NCBI RefSeq assembly: GCF_022213955.1
Contig: NZ_JAKNTW010000001.1
Coordinates: 310,001-374,000 of the forward strand
Origin: Dolomitihabitans soli
Lineage (GTDB): Bacteria; Actinomycetota; Actinomycetes; Streptosporangiales; Streptosporangiaceae
Reading direction: 5' to 3'
Length of the DNA: 64,000 nucleotides
Below are positions 38,967 through 59,055 of this stretch, piece by piece (the stretch's first letter is position 1; each line of letters begins with the position of its first letter). A program made the position numbers and the translations under genes. The notes under the pieces were generated by a model. That model ran no database searches. It worked only from the letters and a program-made list of their open reading frames with translations, and was not told where the DNA came from.

Positions 38967-39848
38967 TCAGCGATGAATGCCGAGTTCGCAGGGGGAATCG
39001 GTGGCGTCGCGAGGGTCTCGGGTCTCGGCCCTGATCTCGGAGAGGACGCCGAGAAGCCTGTCGCCGTCGACACCGAACTGTGTGACCTTGGCGGTGGCGG
39101 CACGGACCGCCTGCCTGAGAGCCGGTGCGGGCTCGACCCCGGCGGAGCGCAGCGCGAGGAACACCCCGGCCAGGATCTCTCCCGCATGGGTGGTGTCCAC
39201 CGGCGTGACCGGGACGGTGGCGGCGTGCCAGGTCCGCCCGGCCGCCGAGTAGGAAGCGCCCTTCGGGCCGTGCTTCGTGATGGCGGAGTTCTGCGGCAGC
39301 GGACCGTCCGCGAAGAGGATCCGGCGTTCCTCGTCGTTCATGAAGGCGAGATCGCAGCTGTTGAGGGCGACGCGAGACCCCTCCGGATCGAGCTCGGCAT
39401 AGTGCTCGAACGCATCGGCTGACACGGTCCGGTGCCCGGGGAGCGCCTTCAGGAAGGCCAGCCATTCCTGTTGCTGGGCCGGGGGAGCGGTGCAGATATG
39501 CACGTGACCGGCGCTCTCGTACTCCCTGGGAAAGCAGGAGAGGGCGGCGTGCGAGGCCACTCCGAGATCCGTGTCGAACGACCGCCTGCCATCGGAATGC
39601 TGAACAATGCGAAAACGAGCAGAATGCCCGTCCAGGATTCCCAGTCCTCGGGTATCGATGCCCAGCCTCCGGAGTGGACCTAGATCGTAATCGGCACCGA
39701 TCGCCGAGACGAGCCCGACCTGCTGGGGGGCGAGGAGAGCGGCGCCGCGTACGCATCCGTATCCGGCACCGCCTGGACTCCGGGTCTCGCCGTGCGGGGA
39801 GTATTCATCGTTTGTTCCGACGTGACCTATGATTACGATATCGACCAT
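38967..39848 (-). CDS. PfkB (ribokinase)-family protein with altered catalytic motif
   Basis: A 293-residue protein from ATG 39848 with AAGGGGA 6 nt upstream. PfkB landmarks are a short N-terminal strand (MVDIVIIGHVGTNDEYS), GGAGYGCVRGAALLAPQQVG as the substrate-binding GG motif and a nucleotide-binding C-terminus. The DTxGAGD catalytic/anion-hole motif reads DTTHAGE (residues 218-224): Gly to His and the catalytic base Asp to Glu. PfkB enzymes phosphorylate sugars or nucleosides; with a viperin nearby a nucleoside role is tempting but unproven. Divergent from the PRTase-like gene. Confidence 0.8.
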   Translation of the reverse strand: MVDIVIIGHVGTNDEYSPHGETRSPGGAGYGCVRGAALLAPQQVGLVSAIGADYDLGPLRRLGIDTRGLGILDGHSARFRIVQHSDGRRSFDTDLGVASHAALSCFPREYESAGHVHICTAPPAQQQEWLAFLKALPGHRTVSADAFEHYAELDPEGSRVALNSCDLAFMNDEERRILFADGPLPQNSAITKHGPKGASYSAAGRTWHAATVPVTPVDTTHAGEILAGVFLALRSAGVEPAPALRQAVRAATAKVTQFGVDGDRLLGVLSEIRAETRDPRDATDSPCELGIHR

Positions 39849-40038
39849 TGAAGTCCCCTTTGTTCTGGTTCTTGCAATGCTCAGCGCCTCAGTGTACCGG
39901 GTGGCCGTTTTTCGGACTAGCCTTAAATGGAATTATGGATTAGTTGCCTAGTGATCCACGGCTTTGAAGGGGTGGCGGCAGGCTGCTCGAACCGGATATC
40001 CTCTGGCCCATCCGCGTGGGAAGAAGCCTGGTGCAGAA

Positions 40039-40815
40039 GTGGAAGTCGTCATATTCGCTCTCGCCGTGACGGGATCCCTGGTCGGTGCACTGACCTTGTT
40101 GGTCAATTTCAGCCAGTACAGGCTGCAAAAGTCGCTTAAGCCTGGAGCGCCCGGCGAGAGAATGGATCCGGTAGAAGCCGGAAAGATACTCCGCGACGTC
40201 ACTTCCGACCCTGTCAGGATTATTGCCGCGAACCATATCTTCATCGAATCGGAGAAAAAGGGCGTCGGCTATATCGACAAGCAGGAGATCGGGATATATC
40301 TAGACATGCACAGCGCCGCCTGTGATCCGGAAAAACGCGAGACCCTGGCGGGGGCGCTGGCGGATTTCGTCCGGCAAACGGCGGGATATCAATCACTCAA
40401 CGGCGTTTCATTCGCGTCTCCGCGTGAAGGAAATCTCCTTGTGGGGGCCGGTGCGGCACAACGCCTCGGGCTGAACTTCCTGATGATCAGGACCGGCAGG
40501 GCTCCGCGGTTCGGATATCCGATCGAAGGGGCCTTCTCTCCGGGATCGACCGCGATTCTGGTGGATGATCTCTGCATGGAGGCGACGTTCCTCACCCGAT
40601 GCGTCAAACTGCTCCGCAGGTATGGCTTGAATGTGTCCCACTGCGTCTGCCTGTTCGAGAGGCTCGACGGCAATGCCAGGGAGGGGCTCGCCGAGGTTTC
40701 GGTCGAACTTCACTCGAAGTACCAGATCGACGACGAAGAGCTGGCTCGATTCAAACAGTACGGTGAATCCGCCCTGGAAGACGATGGGCGACCGGAAGGG
40801 ACGGAGAAGTCGTGA
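40039..40815 (+). CDS. Membrane-anchored phosphoribosyltransferase-like protein
   Basis: About 258 residues from GTG 40039 (TTG 39964 would add 25). A single N-terminal helix (VIFALAVTGSLVGALTLLVNF, with residues 3-23 spanning the membrane) anchors a cytoplasmic type I PRTase-like domain reminiscent of orotate PRTase: GNLLVGAGAAQRLGLNFLMI, PIEGAFSPGSTAILVDDL and a long C-terminal helix. The PRPP loop, normally DDVxTTGxS, is VDDLCMEATF, keeping the two Asp but losing the TTG. GC content and codon choice (ATA, AAA, TAT) are less biased than neighbours. Overlaps the next gene (GTGA). Confidence 0.75.
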   Translation: MEVVIFALAVTGSLVGALTLLVNFSQYRLQKSLKPGAPGERMDPVEAGKILRDVTSDPVRIIAANHIFIESEKKGVGYIDKQEIGIYLDMHSAACDPEKRETLAGALADFVRQTAGYQSLNGVSFASPREGNLLVGAGAAQRLGLNFLMIRTGRAPRFGYPIEGAFSPGSTAILVDDLCMEATFLTRCVKLLRRYGLNVSHCVCLFERLDGNAREGLAEVSVELHSKYQIDDEELARFKQYGESALEDDGRPEGTEKS

Positions 40816-41864
40816 CCGGCGACCTGACATCCTGGGGCGAAAAAGGATTCTTGGCCGACCTGCTTCCCGGGTTGTATGTGGACCCCCTGTTGCTTGGCGG
40901 ATTCGGGCATGACGCATCGGTGATCGAGTTGCCGGATGCCCCCTTCAATCTCATCCAGAAGATCGATCGGGCTTCGCACCCGGTGGCGCTCAAAGAAGGC
41001 TGGTCCGGATATCGAACCTGGGGACGAATGGCGGTCACCGCGAATTGCAGTGACATCCTCGCGTCGGGCGGGCGGCCGATCGCCTGCATGATGGCGGTCA
41101 TGGTACCCGGTACCGAGAAGGCCGTTAACGTGCGGGACATCATTTTCGGCGCCGCCGACGAATGCCGGGCCAACGGAGTGATCTACGCCGGCGGCGACAC
41201 GAAGGAGGCTCAGGACCCCCATGTGGTGGGAACCGCCATCGGTATTATCGAAAAGGACGGATTCCTGCCGAGAAACACGGCGGAACCCGGGGATCAGCTG
41301 TTCTGCGCCGGATTGGTAGGCGGTTTCGCCGGAGCGTACTTCATGCTGAAGAACGTGCCGCAGGATGAGCGGGACCACACGGTCGACGCCTACATCGAGT
41401 ATCTCGCCTCACCCATTGCGCAGTGGTGTGCGGCACGGGAGATGAACAAGAGAAAGGCGGCACGCTGCGGCATGGACGCCAGCGACGGTATTTTGGACGT
41501 GCTCCAGACGTTCTCGTCGGCGGGCGTTCAGGTCAACCTCGACCTCGCCGAGGTTCCTTACCATGATTTCGCCGTCGAGTGTGCACGAAAGACCGGTATC
41601 CCGCTCACGCAACTTATCTTCGGCGGCGGTGACTGGAACATCCTGTACTGCGTTCCCCCTGATCGGGTGGCGGAACTGCGCGAGGTGCGCGGTGTTCCCA
41701 TCTATCGCATCGGCGAGATCACGGCTGGCAGTGGTGTCGTCGCGCGCGCGGGCGATGGGGCCGAACACATGGTGCGTGGCGTGGTGAACGAACACTTCAA
41801 AAGCAGGATCGAGGATGCCACCGGTTTCATGGACAGCATCGAGAAGGGGAGGTTCATTCAGTAA
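40812..41864 (+). CDS. PurM/ThiL-like (AIR synthase-related) ATP-binding protein
   Basis: A 350-residue protein from GTG 40812 with GGAGAAG upstream. It shows the AIR-synthase superfamily layout: RTWGRMAVTANCSDILASGG (the DxxAxGG metal/ATP site), GVIYAGGDTKEAQDPHVVGT, and CGMDASDGILDVLQTFSSAG at the start of the C-terminal domain (the MDxSDGL motif of ThiL/PurM). Members phosphorylate or activate small molecules with ATP (thiamine phosphate, FGAM, selenide, HypE). Exact activity unknown. It is coupled to the PRTase-like gene and overlaps the convergent viperin 3' end by 7 bp. Confidence 0.82.
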   Translation: MTGDLTSWGEKGFLADLLPGLYVDPLLLGGFGHDASVIELPDAPFNLIQKIDRASHPVALKEGWSGYRTWGRMAVTANCSDILASGGRPIACMMAVMVPGTEKAVNVRDIIFGAADECRANGVIYAGGDTKEAQDPHVVGTAIGIIEKDGFLPRNTAEPGDQLFCAGLVGGFAGAYFMLKNVPQDERDHTVDAYIEYLASPIAQWCAAREMNKRKAARCGMDASDGILDVLQTFSSAGVQVNLDLAEVPYHDFAVECARKTGIPLTQLIFGGGDWNILYCVPPDRVAELREVRGVPIYRIGEITAGSGVVARAGDGAEHMVRGVVNEHFKSRIEDATGFMDSIEKGRFIQ

Positions 41865-42729
41865 AGCCCACCACGGGCGAGGAATTTCTTGCGATTTATA
41901 GTAATTTGGGAGATGGCCTCTCCGACGCCGACCTGGAGAATGCTGTCGCTGTACGTGTAGCCGTGGCCAAGGGCGTCGAAGAAGCGGCCGGCTGGGTCGA
42001 CCATCGCATAACTGCCGGTCATCGCCTCGTTGTCCTCAGGAATGATCCGCACGCCGTGCGCCTCCACGGATACGCTCCGCGCGACGAATCGTGCGAACTG
42101 GTCGGCGGTGACCAGCAAGGGTTCCACCTTTCCTGAGTTCTGTCCCCAGACGGGAGTACCTCGAATATCTTCCAGCGTTCCGGCTGGGCGGCGATGATGA
42201 ACTCGGTCAGGTCCTCGAAGTGGTTGGCGGTGGTGACCACGGTGTTGATCTTCAGGCGAAAGCCGTTCTCCTTGAGACGCAGGCACAGGTCGAGGTAGTG
42301 GGTTTCGCTCGCGGGTAGCGCCGCTGTCACCCGGCCCGTCATGGCCAGGGTGGCGGAGTTCAGGCTGTCGACGCTGATCGTCACCCAGTCGAGGATGCCG
42401 CGTAGGCTCCGGAGGGTCTCGGTGCTCAGCAGGCTGCCGTTGGTGACGAGTGCGGTGGTGAGGCCATGGGCGCGGGCGAGCCGGATCAGATCGATGATCC
42501 AGGGGCAGAGCAGTGGCTCTCCGCCAGCGAAGGTGATCTTGAGAAACCCGGCGTCCGCGAGCAGGGACACCACCCGTTCCGCATCATTTTGAGTGAGGTG
42601 TCCCTCAGGCAGGACCGTGCGCCGCACGTCGCGGAAGGTGGCAAAGCAGAAGCGGCATTTCATATTGCAGGGTTGCCAAAGATGAAAATTAACTGTCTCG
42701 ACTGGTACGCGCGCGCCTGTTAAGATCAT
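41858..42729 (-). CDS. Prokaryotic viperin-like radical SAM enzyme, apparently frameshifted
   Basis: Viperins use SAM and a 4Fe-4S cluster to turn a nucleoside triphosphate into its 3'-deoxy-3',4'-didehydro form, a chain terminator. From ATG 42729 (GGAG 6 nt upstream) the protein has the cluster motif QPCNMKCRFCF (CxxxCxxC, Cys 21/25/28), FAGGEP at 67-72 and viperin-specific LKINTVVTTANHFEDLTEF and ERWKIFEVLP. The frame then breaks at 42152-42154 (CCC on the coding strand). One base missing there restores TADQFARF, IIPEDNEAMTGSYAMVDPAG, SILQVGVGEAISQITI and FLARGGLY, all viperin C-terminal features. Restored length is about 290 residues. Codon 3 is TTA. Confidence 0.85.
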
Positions 42730-43126
42730 TATAATCTCCATTGGCTATACGTCCCTGTCACGCGAATGTTAGTGTGATTTATCGGACTTGTCAGCTCAGG
42801 GGCCGTTTAAAAGTCAGACGCGGGATGATACCCCTTGGACGCAGCGGCGGATCGCTTGAGATCGAATGGCTCAGGGAAAGCATCGGCCTTCGGCAGAACC
42901 GTGCGTAACAGCTCCTTTCGTACAGCGCCTCTCGTTGTGATCGCCTGAACACCGTGCCTGACGGGTGAAGAGCCTGAGATCCTTACAGGAGGGGGCTCCG
43001 GGTTCCGCAGCACGGCCTGCGTCACCCGCGAGGTGCCGTTCGCCATCCGGGGGGCGGTGCCGCCCCCCGGCCAAGAGTGCGGGAACCAACCGAAGGGGGG
43101 CTGGGGCACCGCGCCCCTGACAGCCA
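42730..43126. other. Intergenic region with GC hairpin
   Basis: 397 nt between the viperin start and the next rightward gene. The left part is AT-richer and should hold the viperin promoter. The right part holds the hairpin CCGGGGGGCGG/CCGCCCCCCGG (43047-43070, 11-bp stem, 2-nt gap) and a smaller GGGGC/GCCCC hairpin near 43105. No gene could be supported. Confidence 0.6.
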
Positions 43127-46549: not shown

Positions 46550-47643
46550 CGCCGATCACGCCTACTGATCCAACCGGGTTCGGGCGGTCAAGGGAACGTG
46601 CCAATGTGGCGCGCTTCATCCCTGGAATTTGCCTATCTGTCACACCCGAGGAGGCGGGAGGGCCCGGCAGTCGTCCGCGCCGGCCACGCCCGCGGCTCCG
46701 GCGCCCATCGAACGGCTGGAACCGGCCGCCTCGATCGCAGGCGGCCCCACCTTAGGGGGTGTTCGCCGGGGCGAGATCGCCGGCGTCCCCGACCGGGATG
46801 GCGGACGACGCCGCACCTTCCGGATATGCGCTCCGCCTGATCGGGGTTTCGCGAGCACGCGGGCCGCCTGCCTCGGCCCTTCTTCGCGGTCGCTCATGGT
46901 CTCCGTCGTGAGCGGGGTGAATGGAATCTCTCGGTGTCGACCATTCTTTTGGCCTGCTCCGGCCCTGATCGGATTCACCCGGACCGGACGTTCATGATTG
47001 CTCGGTCCTATGACCCCATCGCCCTCTTCCCCATTCCCAGGCGCGGATTTCCCCGCACCAAGTGAGATGGCGTTGACCGGCGGCGAGCCGGCAGATGAAG
47101 CCGCTCGCCGGGTTCCGGCCTGACCGCGTTCGGCTCGTCGTCCTGGAGCGGAATCGGGGGGAGGGGCCTCGGTCATATGCCGCCACCTCGGTTCGTGCGG
47201 ATCCCGGCCGACGTCGCGGCGGTCCCTTGACGGCGCTCGAACACCGAGGTCATGGCCGCCTGAACCCTGCGTTCCCGGTCCGTTCCCCTCGACTGGGCGC
47301 GAGTCGGCGAGGCGGTCGACGACGCCGTTCTGTCGCTCCCGGAACAGAGCACGCATGAAGTCGTAGGAGGGTTGTCTCGCACCAGACCGGCGACCTATAG
47401 TCATTGACATAAATGATGTTGACAGCGCATGTAATTATTTCATGTCGAGTCATGCTCCTGGTGGATTTACTTTTCCTATTCGGGTTCAGAAATCATAAGC
47501 ATCTTTCGGATGTCGATTCCATCGTGACGATCCGGCGATGAAGGTCTGCGGTTCTCGCGCGAACCGGCGCCGGTGTTTCCGTGATGACGTGCCGTGTACC
47601 CATCGCGTCCGTGCGCGCTCGGCGATCCGGAAGGGAAGTGAGG
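46550..47643. other. 1.1-kb region without a supported gene
   Basis: Open frames exist on both strands but all look low-complexity (Arg/Gly/Pro-rich) and lack start signals or recognisable domains. The right part (about 47395-47520) is clearly AT-rich for this genome and contains two TTGACA hexamers (47404-47409, 47419-47424) and CATG-N9-CATG (47429-47444 region). It is probably the promoter region of the sugar cluster that starts at 47644. Confidence 0.6.
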
Positions 47644-48345
47644 ATGCGGTTGACCGGCACCCGGTTACGACCAGAGCCCGACGCCGTGCTGTTCGACGTC
47701 GGGTCCACGCTGATCCACGCCGACCCGGTGATCCTGACCACCTGCCTGACCCGGTACGGCGTGCGGGACGTCGCGCCGGAAGACGCCTCGGCGGCCTTCG
47801 TCCTGGCGCTGGAGGCCAGCCGGGAGCTGCTGCCGCGCGGGCTGGACGACATAGCGAAGGAGGCGGCGCGCTGGGGCCAGTTGCTGGGCATCGCGCCGGG
47901 CCCGGCGATGGCGGCCTTCCGGGACGTGCTCGACACGCCGGGGCTCTACCGATGCGTCGATCCGGACGCCCTCGTGGTCCTCGACGCGCTGCGTGCCGCC
48001 GGGGTGCTGCTGGTGGCCGTGGCCAATGCCGACGGAAACGTGGCGGAGGAGCTCGCCGAGGCCGGATTGCGCGAGTTCTTCGACGTGACGGTCGACTCGG
48101 CGGTGCTGGGGGTCGAGAAGCCGCGCCCGGAGATCTTCCACGACGCCTGCCGTCAGGTGGGGATCCCACCTGCCCGGTCGTGCTTCGTCGGGGATGGGCT
48201 GATCAACGATCTGCTCGGTGCGTGGGCGGCGGGCATCGGGCGCTGCGTCCTGTACGACCCGCTCGGTCTCCGGCCGGAGCTGCCCGGAGCCCTGCGGATC
48301 GGCCGGTTGACCGAGCTGCTCGATGTCACGGGTGAGGAGCGGTGA
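47644..48345 (+). CDS. HAD family hydrolase (probable sugar-phosphate phosphatase)
   Basis: A 233-residue HAD protein from ATG 47644. Motif I AVLFDVGSTLIHADP (nucleophile Asp; the usual second Asp is Gly, as in several HAD subgroups), motif II VAVANADGN, motif III lysine GVEKPRPEIFHDACRQ, motif IV CFVGDGLINDLLGAWAAGIG. As first gene of an operon with Gfo/Idh and DegT enzymes it may remove phosphate from an amino-sugar phosphate. Confidence 0.87.
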   Translation: MRLTGTRLRPEPDAVLFDVGSTLIHADPVILTTCLTRYGVRDVAPEDASAAFVLALEASRELLPRGLDDIAKEAARWGQLLGIAPGPAMAAFRDVLDTPGLYRCVDPDALVVLDALRAAGVLLVAVANADGNVAEELAEAGLREFFDVTVDSAVLGVEKPRPEIFHDACRQVGIPPARSCFVGDGLINDLLGAWAAGIGRCVLYDPLGLRPELPGALRIGRLTELLDVTGEER

Positions 48346-49349
48346 TGGCCGCGCACACGACCGTCCTGGTGGGCTTCGGCCACGTGGCGCGGAACTCCTA
48401 CCTGCCGGAGCTGGCCGCGAGGGGCGCGCGGGTGCGGGTGGTCGACCCCTCCCCGGCCGCACGGGCGGCGGCCGAGGGGCTCGGACTCGACGCGCTCACC
48501 GAGCTGCCGCCCGCGGAGGCCGGAGACCGGGCCCTGATCCTGACGCCCATTCCGAGCCATGCCGCCATGACCAGGGCGGCCATCGAACGCGGCTACCACG
48601 TGCTGGTGGAGAAGCCCGCCGCGCCGACCACCCGGAGCTGGGCCGACCTGTGCGGCATGGCCCGCCGGTCCGGGCGGGCGCTGGTGGCCGCGCCGTTCAC
48701 CGCCTCCGGCTGGGCCGCCGAGGCGATCCGGGCGCTGGTGACGGCCGGCGGGCTCGGCCGGCTCACCTCGATCACCGTCGACTTCGCCAAGTCCGGGCCC
48801 TTCGACAACGGGGAGGTGGCTCCCGAACGGGCCTGGTTCCTCGGCCCGGAGGCGGGCCCGGCGCGTGACTTCGGTCCTTATCCCCTGACCCTGCTGGTCG
48901 GGCTGTTCGGCCCGCTGGAGCAGGTGCGCTGGACCCGCGAGGAAGGCGCGGACCTGGGCCATGTGCTCCGCGGGCGGTTCGTCGTCGACGGGGTGGCCGT
49001 GCCGCTGCGGGCCTGCTTCCGCTACGCGGACGGCCGCGGCGACCGGCCGGTCGTCATCACCGGCACGCGAGGGGAGCTGGTCGTGGACAGCGAACGGGTC
49101 GACGGGCCGCTGACGGCTCCGGTGCCGCTGCCCGGGCCATCGGCCCGCCGGTCGAAGTACCAGCTCGCGCTGGCACAGTTCGACCTGCTGACCACCGACC
49201 TGCTGACCACCGGCCTGCTGACCACCGGCCTGCCGTCCGTCGCGCCGCCGTCCGCCGGTGACACGGCGCTGGACGCGCACCAGCGGATGGTGGGCGAGGT
49301 GATCGGCGTGCTCGAACGAGTCGACCTGGCGGAGAAGGGTGCCGCATGA
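48345..49349 (+). CDS. Gfo/Idh/MocA family dehydrogenase
   Basis: A 334-residue protein from ATG 48345 overlapping the HAD stop (GTG 48342 also possible). TTVLVGFGHVARNSYLPELA is the nucleotide-binding motif and HVLVEKPAAPTTRSWADLCG the EKP motif. Near the C-terminus a LLTTG-type unit is repeated three times (49185-49229). Adjacent to a DegT aminotransferase, it may oxidise a sugar hydroxyl to the ketone that is then aminated. Confidence 0.87.
   Translation: MAAHTTVLVGFGHVARNSYLPELAARGARVRVVDPSPAARAAAEGLGLDALTELPPAEAGDRALILTPIPSHAAMTRAAIERGYHVLVEKPAAPTTRSWADLCGMARRSGRALVAAPFTASGWAAEAIRALVTAGGLGRLTSITVDFAKSGPFDNGEVAPERAWFLGPEAGPARDFGPYPLTLLVGLFGPLEQVRWTREEGADLGHVLRGRFVVDGVAVPLRACFRYADGRGDRPVVITGTRGELVVDSERVDGPLTAPVPLPGPSARRSKYQLALAQFDLLTTDLLTTGLLTTGLPSVAPPSAGDTALDAHQRMVGEVIGVLERVDLAEKGAA
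49185..49229 (+). repeat. Three 15-bp repeats in a Gfo/Idh gene
   Basis: CTGCTGACCACCGAC and two copies of CTGCTGACCACCGGC in frame, encoding LLTTD-LLTTG-LLTTG. The repeat falls in a surface-like loop before the C-terminal helix. Confidence 0.85.
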
Positions 49350-50527
49350 CCGCCGATTACGCTCAGGCCACCTCCACGGTGCCGTCGCACGAGGTCTGGC
49401 TCGACGACGACGGCGTCGAGGCGGTGCTGGCACGAATCCGGACGTCGCTGGAGTCCGGGGCGCTGACCTCGGGCCCGCTGGTCGCCGAGTTCGAGTCCGC
49501 GCTGCGGCGCCGTACCGGACGGCGTGCCGCGGTCGCGGTGACGAACGGCACCGCGGCGCTGGAGCTGATGCTGCGCGCGCTCGGCGTCGGGCCGGGGCAT
49601 GAGGTCCTGGTCCAGGCGGGCAGCTTCATCGCCAGCGCCGCCGCGGTGCTCGCGGTCGGTGCCGACGTGCGGTTCGTCGACATGGACACCGGCAGCCTGG
49701 GCCCGACCGCCGCCCAGGTGGAACATGCCCTCACACCGGCGACCACCGTCGTCATGGTCACCCACCTGGGCGGGCTGATCAGCGGGCATCTGGACGAGGT
49801 CGCCCGGTTGTGCCGCGACCGGGGGATCCATCTGGTCGAGGACGCCGCGCAGGCGCTGGGCAGTACCCACCGGGGCAGGGCCGCGGGGTCCTGGGGGGTG
49901 GCCGCCACTCTCTCGTTCTACGCGCGCAAGGTGCTGACCACCGGCGAGGGCGGTGCCGTGCTCACCGACAACCGGGAACTGGCGGACCGGGTCCGCCTGC
50001 TCGGCGACCAGGGACGTTCGGCGGACGGCGTGCACCGCCACGCGGGCGGCAACTGCCGGATGACCGAGATGCAGGCCGCGCTCGGACTGGTTCAGCTGGA
50101 CCGGTTCGAGGAGAGCCTGGCTCGGCGCAGAGCGATCGCCGCGCGGTACGACGCGCACTTCGCGGGCTACCGGCGGCCGTTCGGCGCCGAAGTGGTGGTG
50201 AACCACTACAAATACTGGCTGGAGCTGCCGACGAGACAGGCGCGCGACGGCTTCGCCGCGGCGATGGGCGAGCAGGGGATCGAACTGCCGGGGCCCCTCG
50301 CCGGGCATGCCGAGCCCATTCACCGGCAGCCGGCGTTCGCCGGCCTGAGGCGGAGCGGGCCGCTGACGGAGACCGGGATGCCGGAGATGCCGGAGACCGA
50401 GCGGTTCTCCGGCCGCCATGTCTGCCTGCCGGTGTATCCGGGGCTGTCGGACGGCGGGCTGGAGAAGATCATCACGGCCGGCGCGCACGCGCTGCGCCGA
50501 TGCGACCCCTCGACGGAGAGTGTGTGA
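49346..50527 (+). CDS. DegT/DnrJ/EryC1/StrS family sugar aminotransferase
   Basis: PLP enzyme that aminates keto sugars or keto cyclitols. 393 residues from ATG 49346 (overlaps the previous gene). Typical motifs are TSGPLVAEFESALRRRTGRR, VTNGTAALELMLRALGVGPG, HLVEDAAQALGSTHRGRAAG, the PLP-lysine segment SFYARKVLTTGEGGAVLT and GGNCRMTEMQAALGLVQLDR. Substrate probably supplied by the adjacent Gfo/Idh dehydrogenase. Confidence 0.93.
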   Translation: MTADYAQATSTVPSHEVWLDDDGVEAVLARIRTSLESGALTSGPLVAEFESALRRRTGRRAAVAVTNGTAALELMLRALGVGPGHEVLVQAGSFIASAAAVLAVGADVRFVDMDTGSLGPTAAQVEHALTPATTVVMVTHLGGLISGHLDEVARLCRDRGIHLVEDAAQALGSTHRGRAAGSWGVAATLSFYARKVLTTGEGGAVLTDNRELADRVRLLGDQGRSADGVHRHAGGNCRMTEMQAALGLVQLDRFEESLARRRAIAARYDAHFAGYRRPFGAEVVVNHYKYWLELPTRQARDGFAAAMGEQGIELPGPLAGHAEPIHRQPAFAGLRRSGPLTETGMPEMPETERFSGRHVCLPVYPGLSDGGLEKIITAGAHALRRCDPSTESV

Positions 50528-50574
50528 CGCATGAGGTGTCTCGACCGGGCGGGCCTGATGATCGGAGCTGGGTG

Positions 50575-51414
50575 ATGGCGACGGGGAACATCGGCTACCT
50601 CGTGCTGGGCGCTCCCCGGTCGGGTACCAACCTGCTCTGCCACGCGCTGCACGCCACGGGCGAGGCGGGCGAACCCGACGAGTGGTACGGCCTGTCCCGG
50701 CTCCACCGGAGGCTGCTGCGCTGGGGGCTGGCCCACCCGGACTCGCGCCAGGAGGCGCCCCGGGCGACCGACTGGCCGGCCTACCGGCAGCGGCTGGCGG
50801 AGCGGGCCGCCGGCGAGGGGCGGTTCGGCGTGAAGGTGTTCCCCTATCACGTGGACCCGCTGTTCCGGTCCGGGCAACTGTCCTCTCCGGTGGATCTGCT
50901 GCCGACGGGATATCGCGCGGACATCCGGGTGATCGTGGTCAGCCGCCGTGACGTGGTCGCCCAGGCGGTCTCGATGGCGATCGCGTCCCGGACGGGTGTC
51001 TTCGCCGACGTGCCGGGCGACGTGCCGGTCCGGGTGCCCACGAGGGTGGCGTGGTGGCGGGAGGGGCCCCCGCCGGCGCTCGTCCCGGAGGGTCACCGGC
51101 TCACCGCCGACGCGTTCGACCCGGCGGAGATCCACCAGATCGTCGCCGGCGTACGGCGGCAGCACGCGGTCTGGGCGGGCTGGCTCGCCGCCACCAGGTT
51201 CCCGCGGTTGTCCGTGACGTACGAGGATCTGGTGGACCGGCGGGAGCTCGTGCTGCAGTCCGCCTTCGATCTGCTCGGCATGTCCGCCCGTGCCGTCGAC
51301 CACCCCGACTCCGGGCTCCGCCGCCAGGCCACCGCCCTCAACGGGGAGATCGGCGAGGCGTACCGGGAGTGGCTCGGCGCCCGGCCGGCCGGCGTCGAGG
51401 GGGCGGCCCGATGA
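50575..51414 (+). CDS. Stf0-like sulfotransferase
   Basis: A 279-residue protein from ATG 50575 with GGAG 7 nt upstream. GYLVLGAPRSGTNLLCHAL is the 5'-phosphosulfate (PAPS) binding loop; AGEPDEWYG follows as in Stf0 trehalose sulfotransferase (TGxAGxPxEYF pattern). IRVIVVSRRDVVAQAVSMAI is the 3'-phosphate motif and LSVTYEDLVDRRE the C-terminal family motif. It likely transfers sulfate from PAPS to a sugar of the product. Confidence 0.88.
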   Translation: MATGNIGYLVLGAPRSGTNLLCHALHATGEAGEPDEWYGLSRLHRRLLRWGLAHPDSRQEAPRATDWPAYRQRLAERAAGEGRFGVKVFPYHVDPLFRSGQLSSPVDLLPTGYRADIRVIVVSRRDVVAQAVSMAIASRTGVFADVPGDVPVRVPTRVAWWREGPPPALVPEGHRLTADAFDPAEIHQIVAGVRRQHAVWAGWLAATRFPRLSVTYEDLVDRRELVLQSAFDLLGMSARAVDHPDSGLRRQATALNGEIGEAYREWLGARPAGVEGAAR

Positions 51415-52571
51415 GCGGCCGTTCCGGCGGGACGGCCGGCCCCGAGCGCGTGCTGCTGGCGGCCCCCGGCGAGCTGTCCGACTCCCGCGGGGGCGCCCCC
51501 ATGCGGTGGCGTGCGCTCCACGCCGCGCTGTCCGCCCATGCCACCATCGACTACCTTCCGGTGACCTGTGCCGCTCCGGGACGGACCTGCCCGCATCGCG
51601 CCGGGTCCACGCGGCAGGCGCGCGACGACCCTTTCGCGAAGTCCTACTGCCCGGTCCAGAGCGACGACCTGCTGGCCAGGGTGACGGCCGGCAAGCCCGA
51701 CCTGGTGATCTCCAGTGAGCTTCGGCTGCATCGCTACGCGGAGCGGATCCGGCGGCTCACCGGAGTGCCCGTGGTGGACGACATGCACAACGTGGAGTTC
51801 GCGCTGCGCCGCGAACTGGAGAGCGAGCGGCTGTCGGAGCGGTACACCCCCGAGCACGCCCAGCAGGTGTTCGACGTCGAGGAGAAGGTGCTCGCCGAGG
51901 CCGCCGGAGTCTGGGTGTGCAGCGAACGCGACCGCGAGCTGCTGCTGTCGCTGCACGGTTCCCGGCACGCGGACCTGGTGCGGGTGGCGAGCAACGCGAT
52001 CCCGGCGCCGGCGGTCCTCGCCGCGGCCGGCGGGATCGAATCGGTCGTTTTCACCGGGCGGCTGGGCTACGAGCCCAACAGCCAGGCCGTGCGCCTGCTG
52101 ATCGAGGAGATCGTGCCGCGGCTGCGCCGTGCGCACCCCGGTCTCCCGGTCGTCATCGCCGGTGCGCGCTGCCCGGAATGGGTGCTCCGGGCGGCGGGCA
52201 CGACACCGGGCCTGCGGGTGATCGCCGATCCACCCGACCTGTCCGAGGTGATCCGGCGTGGCGTGATGGTGGTGCCGCTGCGGGTGGGCGGCGGGACCAG
52301 GTTCAAGGTGCTCGAAGCGTTCGCGCTCGGCGCCCCGGTGGTGTCGACCGCCAAGGGCGTGGAGGGGCTGGACCTGGCCGACGGATGCCACTATCTGCGG
52401 GCCGAGCGGCCGGAGGAGTTCGTCGAGGCGATCGGGCGGATCCTGGCCGACGGAGGGCTGGCGGCGCGGCTGCGGGCCGGCGGCCACGAGCACCTGCGGC
52501 GGCGGTTCTCCTACGAGGCTCTGACCGGCCAGGTCGGGGCCGCCCTCGCGGCGTTGCGGGGAGCGTCGTGA
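51411..52571 (+). CDS. Glycosyltransferase, GT4-like
   Basis: A 386-residue GT-B protein from ATG 51411 overlapping the sulfotransferase stop. N-terminal LLAAPGELSDSRGGAPMRWR; VPVVDDMHNVEFALRRELES in the acceptor half; donor half with VVFTGRLGYEPNSQAVRLLI, VMVVPLRVGGGTRFKVLEAF and APVVSTAKGVEGLDL. Pattern is that of capsule/antibiotic GT4 enzymes. Donor and acceptor unknown. Confidence 0.9.
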   Translation: MSGRSGGTAGPERVLLAAPGELSDSRGGAPMRWRALHAALSAHATIDYLPVTCAAPGRTCPHRAGSTRQARDDPFAKSYCPVQSDDLLARVTAGKPDLVISSELRLHRYAERIRRLTGVPVVDDMHNVEFALRRELESERLSERYTPEHAQQVFDVEEKVLAEAAGVWVCSERDRELLLSLHGSRHADLVRVASNAIPAPAVLAAAGGIESVVFTGRLGYEPNSQAVRLLIEEIVPRLRRAHPGLPVVIAGARCPEWVLRAAGTTPGLRVIADPPDLSEVIRRGVMVVPLRVGGGTRFKVLEAFALGAPVVSTAKGVEGLDLADGCHYLRAERPEEFVEAIGRILADGGLAARLRAGGHEHLRRRFSYEALTGQVGAALAALRGAS

Positions 52572-53695
52572 GCGCCTCCCGGGCCGGCATCGCGGTCGTC
52601 GGCTGCGGCTATGTGGCGGACTTCTATCTGAACACCCTGGAGGATCATCCGGGGCTCACCCTGGTCGGCGTGCACGACCGGATCGCCGAGCGGGCGGTCC
52701 TGGCGGCCGGGAGACACGGGGTGAGGGCGTACGAGGACCTGCCGCGGCTGCTCGCCGACGACCGGGTGTCGATCGTCGTCAACCTGACGAACCCGGCGAG
52801 CCACGCCGAGGTCACGCTCGCCGCGCTGGCCGCCGGGAAGCACGTCTACTCGGAGAAGCCGCTGGCCACCCACGTCGCCGACGGGCGGCGCATCGTGGCG
52901 GAGGCCGAGCGGCGCGGGCTGCTCGTCTCGTGCGCTCCGGCGAACGTCCTCGGGGAGGCGTTCCAGACGTTGTGGCGGGAGATCCGGTCCGGGGCGGTGG
53001 GGGAGCCGCGCCTGGTCTACGCCGAACTCGACGACGGTGCCGTCCACCTCATGGACTACCAGACCTGGAAGAACAGCATGGGCAGCCCGTGGCCGTACCG
53101 CGACGAGTTCGCGGTGGGGTGCAACGCCGAGCACTCGGCGTACCATCTGGCGGCCCTCACCACCATGTTCGGGCCGGTGCGCCGGGTGGTGGCCGACCAC
53201 GGCACGCTGATGCCGGACAAGCTGCCCCCCGGCGAGGACGGGCCGGTCGGTCCGGACTACGTGACCGCCTCGCTGACCTTCGGCTCCGGTGTGATGGCCA
53301 GGTTGACGTGCAGCATCGTCGCCCCGGCGGACCGTTCCCTGACGGTGGTCGGAGACGGTGGCGTGCTGCGGCTGGACAACTGCTGGGACTTCGGCTCGGG
53401 CCTCACCCTCCGGGCGCCGGCCGGGCGCGGGCACGACTACCTGCTCGGCGCGCGGCCGGTGGATCCCGTCCGGCCGTACGCCTATCGGAAGCGCTACGCG
53501 GCCGACCACCGGATGGACTTCCCCCGGGGCGTCGCCGAACTCGCCGCCGCGGCCGGGGAACGGCGGCAGCCGCGGCTGTCCGCCCGGCACGCGCTGCACG
53601 TCCTGGAGGTCACGGACGCGATGACCGCGCGCCACGGCAGCACGGAGATCACGTCGGAGTTCGCCGCCCCGGAGCCGATGACGTGGGCGCGATGA
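52568..53695 (+). CDS. Second cluster Gfo/Idh/MocA dehydrogenase
   Basis: A 375-residue protein from GTG 52568 (overlap GTGA). GIAVVGCGYVADFYLNTLED and HVYSEKPLATHVADGRRIVA are the nucleotide and EKP motifs; the C-terminal domain is full length, including CNAEHSAYHLAALTTMFGPV in which the His could act in catalysis. It is clearly different from the dehydrogenase at 48345, so two oxidations or an oxidation/reduction pair are possible. Confidence 0.88.
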   Translation: MSASRAGIAVVGCGYVADFYLNTLEDHPGLTLVGVHDRIAERAVLAAGRHGVRAYEDLPRLLADDRVSIVVNLTNPASHAEVTLAALAAGKHVYSEKPLATHVADGRRIVAEAERRGLLVSCAPANVLGEAFQTLWREIRSGAVGEPRLVYAELDDGAVHLMDYQTWKNSMGSPWPYRDEFAVGCNAEHSAYHLAALTTMFGPVRRVVADHGTLMPDKLPPGEDGPVGPDYVTASLTFGSGVMARLTCSIVAPADRSLTVVGDGGVLRLDNCWDFGSGLTLRAPAGRGHDYLLGARPVDPVRPYAYRKRYAADHRMDFPRGVAELAAAAGERRQPRLSARHALHVLEVTDAMTARHGSTEITSEFAAPEPMTWAR

Positions 53696-54804
53696 CCGGC
53701 GTGACGACCGGCGCGGCGCCGGGAGCCGGGCGGCGGCCCGCGCTCTCCTGCGCGATCATGGCTCATCCGGCGAGGCGCCGCTCCGCCGAGCGGATCGCGG
53801 TACGGCTGGCCGCGCTGTCGCCGACGATCGTGTACGACCCCGATCCCGGCGGGCCCAGGTCGACGCTGCGCACGGCCGTCGCCGCGTGGTCGGCCGTCAC
53901 GGACGGGGCCACCCACCATCTCGTCGTGCAGGATGACGTCGAGCCGGTGGACGACTTCGTCCCGCGCCTGCGCCACGCGGTGGCCGGCCATCCGGACAAG
54001 GTGCTCTGCGCGTTCACCGAGTGGGGCTGCCAGACGGCGACCATGGTCCGCTGGGGGGCCATGCACGGCATCGGCCTGGTGGAGTGCGTCGACAACTACG
54101 TGCCCACCCAGGCGACGGTGCTGCCCGCCGCCGACGCGACGGCGTTCGCCGCCTACGCGGCGGAACATCTCTCCTGGGACACGCCCGACGACATCGGCCT
54201 GCGCCGGTACCTGGCGGCGGGGGGCCGGTCGGCGTACGCGCTGGCGCCCAACCTGGTGGACCACGACGCGATGGCGAGCCTGGTGGGCAACGAGTCGGAC
54301 GGCCTGCGTCCGGCCGCCTGGCTGCCCGCCCGCGGCGAGGCTCCGGGTGGGCCGGGCGTGCTGCTCGCGCCGCCCCGCATACCGACGCAGACCTGGAGCA
54401 AGGGCCGGGCCCTGTGCTTCAGGTACGCCCCCGAGTCGCTGCGCATGGAGGACTCGGAACCCACCCGCCGGGTGCTGGCCCGGCGGGGCACGGCTCCCCG
54501 CCCGATCACCGACCGGCTGGACGCGGCGTTGGACGCGGCGGGCCGGGCCGTGGACCTGGAGCTGCACATCGGCTACGCCCTGCTGCACGAGCTGTGGGTG
54601 ACCGCGGTCGCCCTCGGTGCGCTGCTGCCCGCCGTGCCGGGGGAGAAGGAGCCGTCTCCGGACCGCGCCGCGCGCCGGGCGCTGAGCACGATGGGGCCGG
54701 GGGCGCTGCGGTGCTTCGCCGGCGCCGCGGTGCTCCGGGAGTGCGGACCGGTTCTGACCGATCTGGTCGTCGAGGGGGTGTCCTGCGGACTTGAGACCCG
54801 ATGA
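53692..54804 (+). CDS. Putative glycosyltransferase-like protein
   Basis: A 370-residue protein from ATG 53692 (overlap ATGA). The N-terminal half, ALSCAIMAHPARRRSAERIA, and HHLVVQDDVEPVDDFVPRLR recall a GT-A nucleotide-sugar fold in which DDV would be the metal-binding DxD-like site. YVPTQATVLPAADATAF and LVDHDAMASLVGNESDG resemble the acceptor side. The C-terminal 100 residues are helical and unassigned. Glycosyl transfer is an inference from weak motifs and context. Confidence 0.65.
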   Translation: MTGVTTGAAPGAGRRPALSCAIMAHPARRRSAERIAVRLAALSPTIVYDPDPGGPRSTLRTAVAAWSAVTDGATHHLVVQDDVEPVDDFVPRLRHAVAGHPDKVLCAFTEWGCQTATMVRWGAMHGIGLVECVDNYVPTQATVLPAADATAFAAYAAEHLSWDTPDDIGLRRYLAAGGRSAYALAPNLVDHDAMASLVGNESDGLRPAAWLPARGEAPGGPGVLLAPPRIPTQTWSKGRALCFRYAPESLRMEDSEPTRRVLARRGTAPRPITDRLDAALDAAGRAVDLELHIGYALLHELWVTAVALGALLPAVPGEKEPSPDRAARRALSTMGPGALRCFAGAAVLRECGPVLTDLVVEGVSCGLETR

Positions 54805-56704
54805 GCGTGGACGATGGAAGGACTCGGTCGCCGTAACGCGGGAGATCGCACGGCTGCTGCCGCAGGCCGGGTGGGCCCCGGTGCTGGCGATGATCGTGAC
54901 CAACGTGCTGCTCGGCGTGCTGCCGGTGGTGTTCGTGGTCGGCACGAGCGTGCTGCTGGGCCGGGTGTCGGCGGCCGTGGCCGCAGGGACCGCCTCGGCG
55001 GAGTGGTCGGCGATGGCGACCGCCTTCCTGGCGGCCTCCGCGGCGTTCAGCGTGCAACAGGCGCTGGCGCCGGTGCAGAACGCGCTGGGCGAACTGGTCG
55101 CGCGCCGGATCGACGGGCGGATCTTCGACCGGCTGATCGCCGCCGCGCTGCGCGGTCCGGGCATCGGCCCGCTGGAGGATCAGCGGCTGCTGAGCCACCT
55201 GAGCGAGGCCGGCAGCGAGCTGGAACAGGGCGTGCACAGCCCCGGCAGGGCCTGCGCCGGCCTGCTGCACCTGATCACCCGCTCGGTGCAGCTCGCCGGA
55301 TACGTGGCGGTCATCGGGCTGGCCTTCTCCTGGTGGGCGGGGCTCGGGCTGCTGGTCGCGGTCATGGCCTTCCGGTACGGCCTGCGCAGAGGGCTGCGGG
55401 CGTACGCGGAGGTGTTCCCCCGGCTGGCGGCGGAGCGGCGCGAGAGCCGTTATCTGCGGGGCCTGGCCATGGACGCCACGGCGGCCAAGGAGATCCGGGT
55501 GTTCGGCCTGATGAAGTGGCTGCTCGCGCGTTATCGCAAGGTCTACCTGGGCTGGATCATGCCGGTATGGCGGGAGCGGCGTCGGCTGCTGCTGTGGCCC
55601 TACCTCCGGTACACGGTCTTCGGGCTGCTGGTCACCATGGCGGTGCTGGCGTCGGTGGCTGCGGCCGGAGCCCGGGGGGCGACGCTGACCAGCCTGGCGC
55701 TGGTCTGCCAGGCCGTGCTGAACGGCCTGCGCCTGGGCGAGTTCTATCCGGAGGCCGACATGCAGACGCTGCTGGGCATGAACGCCTTCCGGGCGGCGCG
55801 GGACTTCGAACAGGGGGTGGCGGAGCACCTGGCGGCCGAGCCGGCGGCCCCGCGAGGGCAGCTCGCCGAGGCCCCCGTCCCGCGCGGGGAGATCCGGTTC
55901 GACGGGGTGTCCTTCCGGTACCCGGGCCGGGAGCGGCCGGTGTTCGACGACCTCCGGTTGCGCCTTCCCGCGGGGAAGTGCACGGCGATCGTGGGCCTCA
56001 ACGGCGCGGGTAAGACCACGCTGGTCAAGCTGCTCACCCGCCTGTACGAGCCGGACACGGGGATGATCACGGTCGACGGCGCCGACGTCCGGTCGTTCGC
56101 GGTGGACGCCTGGCGGGCCCGCGTCGCGGTCGTCTTCCAGGACTTCAACCGGTACGAGGTGAGCGCGGCGGACAACATCGGGTTCGGCGCCGCGCCGCAC
56201 GCCGGCGATCGGGAGGAGATCCGGGTGGCGGCCAAGGACGCGGGCGTCCTCGACGTGCTCGAAGCCCTGCCGCAAGGGCTCGACACGCCCCTGGTACGGC
56301 ACGTCACCGGCGGGACCGACCTGTCCGGCGGGCAGTGGCAGCGCGTGGCACTCGCCCGTGCGCTGTTCCGGCTGCGGCACGGCGGCGGAATCCTGGTGCT
56401 GGACGAGCCGACGGCCAGTCTCGACGTGCGGGCCGAGGCCAGGTTCTTCGACGAGTTCATCCGGCTCACCAGCGGCGCGACCACCATCCTGATCTCACAC
56501 CGGTTCTCCACCGTGCGGCACGCCGACCACATCGTGGTGCTGGCGGACGGCCGAGTCGGCGAGGCGGGCTCGCATGAGGAGTTGCTCCGCGACGGCGGCC
56601 GGTACGCGGACCTGTTCCGGTTGCAGGCCGCCCGGTTCACCGAGCATCGGGCATCCGAGGCGCCGGCCGGTGCCCGAAGCGGCGGCGGCCAGGTGATTCC
56701 ATGA
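54791..56704 (+). CDS. ABC transporter, fused permease-ATPase (exporter half 1)
   Basis: A 637-residue half-transporter. TTG 54791 overlaps the previous gene and no in-frame ATG lies nearby. Six-helix membrane domain at about 20-310, then an ATPase with GLNGAGKTTLVKLLTRLYEP, signature LSGGQWQRVALARALF, LVLDEPTASLDVRAEARF and the switch His in ILISHRFSTVRHADHI. It overlaps a sister gene with the same architecture, so the two probably form a heterodimeric exporter for the cluster product. Confidence 0.92.
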   Translation: MRPDERGRWKDSVAVTREIARLLPQAGWAPVLAMIVTNVLLGVLPVVFVVGTSVLLGRVSAAVAAGTASAEWSAMATAFLAASAAFSVQQALAPVQNALGELVARRIDGRIFDRLIAAALRGPGIGPLEDQRLLSHLSEAGSELEQGVHSPGRACAGLLHLITRSVQLAGYVAVIGLAFSWWAGLGLLVAVMAFRYGLRRGLRAYAEVFPRLAAERRESRYLRGLAMDATAAKEIRVFGLMKWLLARYRKVYLGWIMPVWRERRRLLLWPYLRYTVFGLLVTMAVLASVAAAGARGATLTSLALVCQAVLNGLRLGEFYPEADMQTLLGMNAFRAARDFEQGVAEHLAAEPAAPRGQLAEAPVPRGEIRFDGVSFRYPGRERPVFDDLRLRLPAGKCTAIVGLNGAGKTTLVKLLTRLYEPDTGMITVDGADVRSFAVDAWRARVAVVFQDFNRYEVSAADNIGFGAAPHAGDREEIRVAAKDAGVLDVLEALPQGLDTPLVRHVTGGTDLSGGQWQRVALARALFRLRHGGGILVLDEPTASLDVRAEARFFDEFIRLTSGATTILISHRFSTVRHADHIVVLADGRVGEAGSHEELLRDGGRYADLFRLQAARFTEHRASEAPAGARSGGGQVIP

Positions 56705-58500
56705 GAAACCTCGTCCTGGCGGCGGCACGGTTGCTGGCCATGTCGTGGCGGCAGAGCCGGCGGAAGACCGCCGCCGCGACCGTGCTGATGCTGGCCAGCG
56801 GCACCGCCGTACCGCTGGCCGGGCTCGGCCTGCGCCAGCTCTTCGACGCGGCGCTCGCCGGGCGGGCCGGCGAGGCGGTGATCGCGGGCGTCCTGGTCGC
56901 GGTGCTGCTCATCGCGGGGCTGACGTTCACGCACTTCGCCCACATCGCCTACTTCGAGCTCGCCGAGCTGAACATGCTGCACTACGACGAGGAGTTGATC
57001 ACCCTTGCCAACGGCTCCCCCGGCCTGGAGGCGCACGAGGACTCCGCCCACGCCAACCGTTTCACCGTCCTGGCGCAGGAGGTGCAGCAGACCCGCAACA
57101 CGCTCCGGTCCCTGCTGACCTTCGCCGGGCTCGGTGTGGGGATGCTGCTGACCGCCGTACTGCTGGCGATGCTGCATCCGGTGCTCCTGCTCCTGCCCGT
57201 GGTGGCGGTGCCGCCGCTGCTGGCGGGACGCAGGTCCGAGCGGCTGGCGGACCGGGCCAGGGAGGCCACGGCCGAGCCGACCCGGCTCGCGCTCAATCTG
57301 TTCCGGCTGGCCGGGGACGAGGGCTCCGCCAAGGAGGTGCGGGTCTACCACCTGCAGGACGAGGTACGGCGTCGCCACACGGCGCTGTGGAACCAGGTGA
57401 GCACGACGCTCTGGCGGGCGCACCGCCGATCCACCCTGCTGCGGGCCGCCGGCCAGCTCGTGTTCGCCGCCGGATACGTCGCCGCGGTGTTGCTGGTCGT
57501 CCGCGAGACCATCGCCGGCCGGCGGACGGTGGGCGACGTGGTGCTGGTGGTCGCGCTCGCCGCCCAGGTGAACGCGCAGGTCGCCCAGACGGTGGCGCTG
57601 GTGCCCGATCTGCAGCGCCTGACCGGCGTCGACCGGCGCCTGCGCGAACTGCGCGAAGCGCTCTCACCCGCCTCCGCCGCCGCCCGCACCGCTGATGGGC
57701 CCGCCGCCGCGCCCGTGCCGGAGCGGCTGGAACAGGGCATCACCCTGCGGGGGGCGTCCTTCTCCTATCCGGGCACCAGGGCGCCCGCGCTGCGCGACGT
57801 CGACCTGCACCTGCCCGCGGGCTCCACGGTCGCCGTCATCGGCGAGAACGGCGCCGGCAAGAGCAGCCTGGTCAAACTGCTGTGCGGGTTCTACCGGCCC
57901 GCCGAAGGCGAGATTCTCATCGACGGCATCGACTTGGACCGCATCCCGCTCGGCGGTTGGCGCACCCGGATCGCGGCGGGCTTCCAGGACTTCGTCCGCT
58001 ACGAGTTCGCGGCCCGGCGGGCCGTGGGCGTGGGCGACCTGCCCCTGGAGGGCTACGAGAAGGCGGTGCTGGCCGCTCTGGACCGGGCCCACGCGGCCGA
58101 CGTGCTCCCCACCCTGCCCGCCGGGCTGGCCACGCAACTCGGCAGGAGCTACGCCGACGGGATCGAGCTCTCCGGCGGGCAGTGGCAGAAGCTGGCCCTC
58201 GGGCGCGCGCTCATGCGCGAGCAGCCGCTGCTGCTCGTCCTGGACGAGCCCACCTCGGCACTGGACCCCGAGGCCGAGCACGCCCTCTTCGAACGCTACG
58301 CCGCGCAGGCCGCGCGGGCCGCCACCACGGGCGCGATAACCCTGCTGGTCTCGCATCGCTTCTCCACCGTCCGTACGGCCGATCTCATCGTCGTGGTCTC
58401 GGGCGGCCGGGTGACCGAGGTCGGGGACCACGCCGCCCTGGTGCGCGAGGGCGGCCTCTACGCGGAGCTGTACGGACTGCAGGCCCGGGCCTACCGCTGA
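56701..58500 (+). CDS. ABC transporter, fused permease-ATPase (exporter half 2)
   Basis: A 599-residue half-transporter from ATG 56701 overlapping half 1 (ATGA). Membrane domain at about 15-300, ATPase with GENGAGKSSLVKLLCGFYRP, LSGGQWQKLALGRALM and LLVLDEPTSALDPEAEHALF, plus LLVSHRFSTVRTADLIVVVS. The LSGGQWQ signature is shared with half 1. It is last in the rightward operon and its 3' end overlaps the convergent phosphatase gene by 10 bp. Confidence 0.92.
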   Translation: MRNLVLAAARLLAMSWRQSRRKTAAATVLMLASGTAVPLAGLGLRQLFDAALAGRAGEAVIAGVLVAVLLIAGLTFTHFAHIAYFELAELNMLHYDEELITLANGSPGLEAHEDSAHANRFTVLAQEVQQTRNTLRSLLTFAGLGVGMLLTAVLLAMLHPVLLLLPVVAVPPLLAGRRSERLADRAREATAEPTRLALNLFRLAGDEGSAKEVRVYHLQDEVRRRHTALWNQVSTTLWRAHRRSTLLRAAGQLVFAAGYVAAVLLVVRETIAGRRTVGDVVLVVALAAQVNAQVAQTVALVPDLQRLTGVDRRLRELREALSPASAAARTADGPAAAPVPERLEQGITLRGASFSYPGTRAPALRDVDLHLPAGSTVAVIGENGAGKSSLVKLLCGFYRPAEGEILIDGIDLDRIPLGGWRTRIAAGFQDFVRYEFAARRAVGVGDLPLEGYEKAVLAALDRAHAADVLPTLPAGLATQLGRSYADGIELSGGQWQKLALGRALMREQPLLLVLDEPTSALDPEAEHALFERYAAQAARAATTGAITLLVSHRFSTVRTADLIVVVSGGRVTEVGDHAALVREGGLYAELYGLQARAYR

Positions 58501-59033
58501 AGGGCGGTGAGCGCCCAGTCGACGGCCTCCCCTATGTGACGGGCCACGAAGTCCGCCGAGGACTCGGCCACCTCCCGGCCCAGGGGGTGGATGAGGACGG
58601 TGGCGGCGCCGACGGCGCGGCCCGCCAGCAGGTCGGACACCGAGTCCCCGACCATGCAGGAGCCCGGCAGGGAGATGGAGTGGTCGGCCGCGGCGCGGGT
58701 CAGCATGCCGGGGGCGGGTTTGCGGCAGTCGCAGCGGTCCAGGGGATGGGGGCACACGTAGCCCGCGTCGAGCCGGGCTCCCCGCTCGGCCAGCAGCTCA
58801 CGCAGACGGGCGTCCACCGCCGCGTACGCGGCGGGGCCGGCCGGGGGGCGGGCGAGCCAGCGCTGGTTGGTGACCAGGACGGCCAGGACGCCGGCCCGGT
58901 TGACGCGGCGTACGGCTTCGGCGGCGCCGGGGAGCAGCACCAGTTCCTCGGGCCGGCGGATGTACTCGCCCGGTGGAGCCTTCTCGTTGAGCGTGCCGTC
59001 TCGGTCGAGGAACACGGCACGGTTCCGGGACAT
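58491..59033 (-). CDS. GmhB-like HAD-IIIA phosphatase
   Basis: A 180-residue protein from ATG 59033 (GGTGG 8 nt upstream; GTG 59045 possible). AVFLDRDGTLNEKAP is the DxDGT nucleophile motif, AVLVTNQR motif II, and CPHPLDRCDCRKPAPGM has the zinc-binding Cys/His pattern and lysine of D-glycero-manno-heptose-1,7-bisphosphate phosphatase GmhB. MVGDSVSDLLAGRAVGA is motif IV. The neighbouring nucleotidyltransferase supports a heptose-type pathway. Confidence 0.9.
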   Translation of the reverse strand: MSRNRAVFLDRDGTLNEKAPPGEYIRRPEELVLLPGAAEAVRRVNRAGVLAVLVTNQRWLARPPAGPAAYAAVDARLRELLAERGARLDAGYVCPHPLDRCDCRKPAPGMLTRAAADHSISLPGSCMVGDSVSDLLAGRAVGAATVLIHPLGREVAESSADFVARHIGEAVDWALTALQR

Positions 59034-59055
59034 CGTCTCGGCCACCCCGGCGAGC

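Follow-up and report, generated by a model that had tools for sequence, protein, structure and literature searches.

An interrupted prokaryotic viperin gene in a conserved four-gene cassette of Dolomitihabitans soli

The window, a 64,000-nucleotide stretch of Dolomitihabitans soli contig NZ_JAKNTW010000001.1, carries on its minus strand (42741 to 41858) a gene that profile searches and phylogeny identify as a true prokaryotic viperin by descent, interrupted in the assembly. Together with three neighbours it makes up a conserved cassette at 38967-42741. Our overall reading, held at a probability of about 0.6, is that a true, recently selected viperin with one base missing belongs to a conserved cassette that would act against phages through a ddh-nucleotide and nucleotide-handling partner proteins. 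The unusual part of the locus is the set of three partner genes, more so than the frame break, and the sequence-only reading of this DNA missed the cassette.

Viperin is a human antiviral enzyme with bacterial relatives, and for the family as a whole antiviral action is established. The radical SAM gene at 41858..42741 had been proposed, from its motifs, to encode a viperin (a radical SAM nucleotide dehydratase) rather than a MoaA/SPASM enzyme, and profile searches bear this out. The protein obtained by joining the two frames scored 288 bits against NF038283 (cut-off 180), residues 16-291 aligning with positions 3-280 of 281 and so covering almost the whole model, and 74 bits against MoaA, below the cut-off of 284. 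PADLOC pVip models gave 263-319 bits, the top match being a viperin-kinase fusion model. Its closest PDB matches were all viperins or viperin-like enzymes (E 1e-33 to 1e-39), viperins reaching about 1e-38 compared with about 1e-6 for MoaA. Both pieces match the NCBI viperin model independently, the 5' piece with 201 bits (E 1.5e-59) and the 3' piece with 75 bits (E 5.1e-21), far more agreement than chance would produce. All of the viperin motifs named earlier were found, as LKINTVVTTAN, ERWKIFEVLP, RIIPEDNEAMTGSYAMVD, SILQVGVGEAI and FLARGGLY; the 5' piece contains CNMKCRFC, which fits the CxxxCxxC cluster motif, and GGEP, and the C-terminal motifs SILQVGVGEAI and FLARGGLY lie in the 3' piece. 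The likeness to the pVip family (NF038283; PADLOC PDLC02903/02904/02905; Bernheim et al. 2021) is full-length, taking in the catalytic core with CxxxCxxC and GGEP as well as the C-terminal part with its motifs; the nearest solved structures are viperins, and the tree places the window protein inside the pVips. It differs from them in its broken reading frame and in its neighbours, with PRT-like, ThiL-like and PfkB-like genes adjoining instead of a thymidylate or deoxynucleoside kinase. The 10.8 Mb genome has no second viperin, its remaining radical SAM matches falling under the cut-off.

The 5' in-frame piece (42154..42741, minus strand, 196 codons) encodes the radical SAM core. Its frame runs from the ATG at 42741 to 42154, ending in RWKIFEVL; two C's (42153-42152) come next. 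The 3' piece (41858..42151, minus strand) continues in a second frame from 42151, reading VWGQNSGK, then RIIPEDNEAMTGSYAMVD and SILQVGVGEAI, and closing with FLARGGLY and a stop at 41858. The CCC at 42152..42154 is the break site. Here the window has one base fewer than the aligned relatives, all 11 of which keep a continuous frame with a codon for Pro (CCN) in most and for Arg or Ser in two, so the junction had been placed correctly at 42152-42154. No single open frame spans the whole enzyme: ORF 42019-42741 runs on for more than 40 codons out of frame past the break, and ORF 41858-42286 contains the C-terminal part. The truncated product would be missing its C-terminal third, a part that all viperins conserve, so the gene as it stands in the assembly could not yield a working enzyme and would be inactive. 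The alternative that the two frames are separate functional genes, also raised in the sequence-only reading, was rejected, as no relative with the viperin frames as separate genes was found.

The age of the break was assessed against the intact viperin ortholog of G287, a genome of the same family and a different genus, which is 72-73% identical to the window viperin. Differences at codon positions 1/2/3 numbered 43/35/99 in the 5' piece and 22/11/51 in the 3' piece, with third-position changes dominating on both sides of the break. The corresponding dN/dS values were 0.147 and 0.107, and the three partner genes fall in the same range (0.11-0.15). Where six outgroups are invariant, 4 changes are private to the window viperin and 6 to the G287 ortholog, and the comparison with G287 and the outgroups revealed no excess of amino-acid changes in the window viperin. 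All same-family relatives are open across the break site. These substitution patterns show that selection acted on the gene up to the very recent past and, with no sign of decay in either piece, leave two origins for the break, a very recent mutation or a sequence or assembly error.

For the second of these, in which the base was lost in sequencing or assembly and the viperin of the strain itself is whole and functional, we see something close to an even chance. It agrees with the absence of relaxed selection in either piece, with the intact state of the cassette partner genes and with the draft nature of the genome (81 contigs). Against it, the assembly yielded 31 matches to the aldehyde dehydrogenase domain, none of them in a split gene, and is therefore not generally frame-broken, although this sample of some 40 kb leaves room for a single error. 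No other obvious frame break was seen in the inspected parts of the window, and a run of three or four C is an untypical error site for short reads.

Recent inactivation and sequencing error, two of the three causes first offered for the break, thus stand; the third, phase variation, fares badly. Slipped-strand changes toggling the viperin would suit a break within a C run, and switching could benefit an enzyme that makes toxic nucleotides, but the supposed homopolymer is CCC only, unremarkable at a genomic GC content of 70% and not of the contingency type. At CCC/CCCC the run is short, and the codons of relatives at this point (CCG, CCC or CCT) form no run, leaving slipped-strand switching without a substrate; we consider it very improbable. 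Slighter still is the chance that a programmed -1 frameshift yields the full viperin: both frames are conserved in sequence, but the X XXY YYZ heptamer is absent at ATTCGAGGTACTCCCGTCT and relatives read the break region in one frame.

The cassette comprises a PfkB-family kinase-like gene (38967..39848, minus strand), a gene for a phosphoribosyltransferase-like (PRT-like) protein with an N-terminal membrane helix (40039..40815, plus strand), a ThiL-like AIRS-superfamily kinase gene (40812..41864, plus strand) and the viperin gene on the minus strand. The last two end tail-to-tail, their stops overlapping by 7 bp. The cassette has a GC content of 59-67% within a background of 70-73%. In G287 all four genes recur intact, with strand arrangement and 7-bp overlap unchanged and at 69-77% identity; neither the intergenic nor the flanking sequence is conserved between the two cassettes. 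Judged by this comparison, the four genes are a conserved cassette moving together, and it appears to move horizontally.

The cassette is known from two genomes only. The PRT-like gene was found in 2 of 299 genomes in the family draw and in 1 of 55 from the genus of G287. Among 347 genomes of the order it occurs in two, those of the window and G287, beside the viperin in both, and the single hit among 396 genomes of the phylum is the window genome itself. The searched plasmids and viral contigs yielded no match to it. The ThiL-like gene had no viral contig match; on plasmids it had just two distant ones, at 26-29% identity. None of 12 viral-contig loci with viperin relatives carried the cassette or the cyclase/IMPase partners described below. 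At the viperin site, scans for Rfam families and tRNAs were negative, and a repeat search found no flanking repeats marking a mobile element. Since PADLOC detected no other defence gene among ten tested neighbours, the locus is not an obvious defence island. Elsewhere in the window, 47581-59045 looks, from its sequence alone, like a cluster for sugar/glycan biosynthesis; it contains Gfo/Idh oxidoreductases, an aminotransferase-like gene, several glycosyltransferase-like ones and two resembling ABC transporters.

The ThiL-like protein shares with ThiL (TIGR01379) the AIRS fold and the GGDT and DxSDG motifs. It scores only 146 bits against a cut-off of 184, and the true ThiL of the genome is encoded elsewhere (G000:C66, 272 bits), so that the cassette gene is not the housekeeping ThiL. 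The longest ORF of the PRT-like gene opens at 39964; the conserved start is the GTG at 40039, the G287 ortholog (74% identical) beginning at the equivalent point. Mean hydropathy over 19 residues is 2.4-3.1 in its N-terminal helix. Its PRT domain shows a weak match to orotate phosphoribosyltransferases that takes in the acidic pair of the PRPP loop, but the protein differs from them in the membrane helix, in a degenerate loop (TxGx to MEAT, with DDLCMEA[T/S] in the two copies) and in E-values of only 1e-5 to 1e-7. A structure predicted with its one ortholog had a pLDDT of 42 and was set aside. The PfkB-like protein scores 62 bits against PF00294, above the curated cut-off; alignment with canonical PfkB showed that the catalytic signature GAGD has become HAGE in both orthologs. 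The changed motifs, DDLCMEA and HAGE, suggest that the PRT-like and PfkB-like proteins, two of the three partners, may be altered enzymes or binding proteins, perhaps not catalysts.

All seven other viperins found in the same family (L024-L030) lie alongside genes for a squalene-hopene-cyclase-like repeat protein and an inositol-monophosphatase-family protein (IMPase). The same triad occurs, across phyla, on a Thiodictyon plasmid (L034). In the two examples examined, the cyclase-like partner has a hydrophobic, membrane-type C-terminal segment. The literature searched was not found to mention this arrangement, which spans eight loci in two phyla. The known deoxynucleoside/thymidylate kinase adjoins the cyanobacterial and Pseudoalteromonas plasmid viperins. 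Neither set of partners was found at the cassette locus L023, where the kinases of L033 and L036 had no match and the squalene-cyclase-like and IMPase genes were absent; the window viperin adjoins PfkB-like and ThiL-like genes, not a deoxynucleoside kinase. The cyclase-like partner is absent in G287 and has a single short 36% match elsewhere in the window genome (G000).

The two cassette viperins group together in the tree (98/98), nested in a larger clade (100/99) that also holds six cyclase-type viperins. These six sisters are 64-68% identical to the window viperin and, like it, have a membrane-anchored partner, whereas their partner genes are wholly unlike those of the cassette. As all seven other same-family viperins pair with the cyclase-like and IMPase genes, the window gene is best described as a pVip with swapped partners, and the simplest reading of the tree and neighbourhoods is that the enzyme stayed while the partners changed. 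Reported pVip neighbours include HicA and RelE (PMC10865869). The partner set of the cassette went unmentioned in the literature searched, which left out the principal pVip papers, Bernheim 2021 and Shomar 2024. Other neighbourhoods were observed among the viperin loci: a Dehalococcoidia viperin is followed by an overlapping gene for a 569-aa protein with a helix-turn-helix and TPR repeats (L020:8899-10608), a Poseidoniales archaeal viperin by AAA ATPase and helicase-like genes (L022:8798-14213), and a Pseudoalteromonas plasmid viperin, shortly downstream, by a reverse transcriptase domain gene in a likely defence island (L036:9699-13376).

Viperins act on CTP, UTP or GTP, and the ddh forms that they produce terminate RNA chains (PMC10732462). 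By analogy, an intact cassette viperin, such as that of G287, would convert a nucleoside triphosphate to its 3'-deoxy-3',4'-didehydro form, which would serve as a chain terminator for phage polymerases; both the ddh-nucleotide product and the defence role are inferred from the family. The membrane PRT-like, ThiL-like and PfkB-like proteins might make, phosphorylate or sense this nucleotide, standing in for the nucleotide kinase that accompanies other pVips and presumably has this task there, a role that we propose only tentatively. ThiL adds a phosphate to a monophosphate, so the ThiL-like protein would suit a part in nucleotide phosphorylation. A bolder version, in which the partners build, phosphorylate or sense a non-standard nucleotide and the locus represents a new class of viperin system whose product is not ddhCTP, ddhGTP or ddhUTP, seems improbable.

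A further reading, unlikely but less so than that version, is that the cassette serves not phage defence but the biosynthesis of a ddh-nucleoside natural product that is secreted or stored. The partners do resemble nucleotide and sugar-phosphate enzymes, the host is a large-genome actinobacterium and no defence genes were found in the neighbourhood. The conserved cassette, however, contains no transporter, regulator or tailoring gene, and the sister viperins have other partners. Antiphage activity published for the pVip family (PMC10865869) also argues for a defensive cassette, the reading we favour.

Few cases of immunity common to humans and bacteria are as clear as the viperins, and the roles of their partner genes are largely untested. 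The frame break, ordinary in itself, matters for this strain only. A viperin whose sequence is kept while all of its partners change shows which parts of such a system are exchangeable, and the intact cassette of G287 would provide a means of testing whether the partners set the modified nucleotide.
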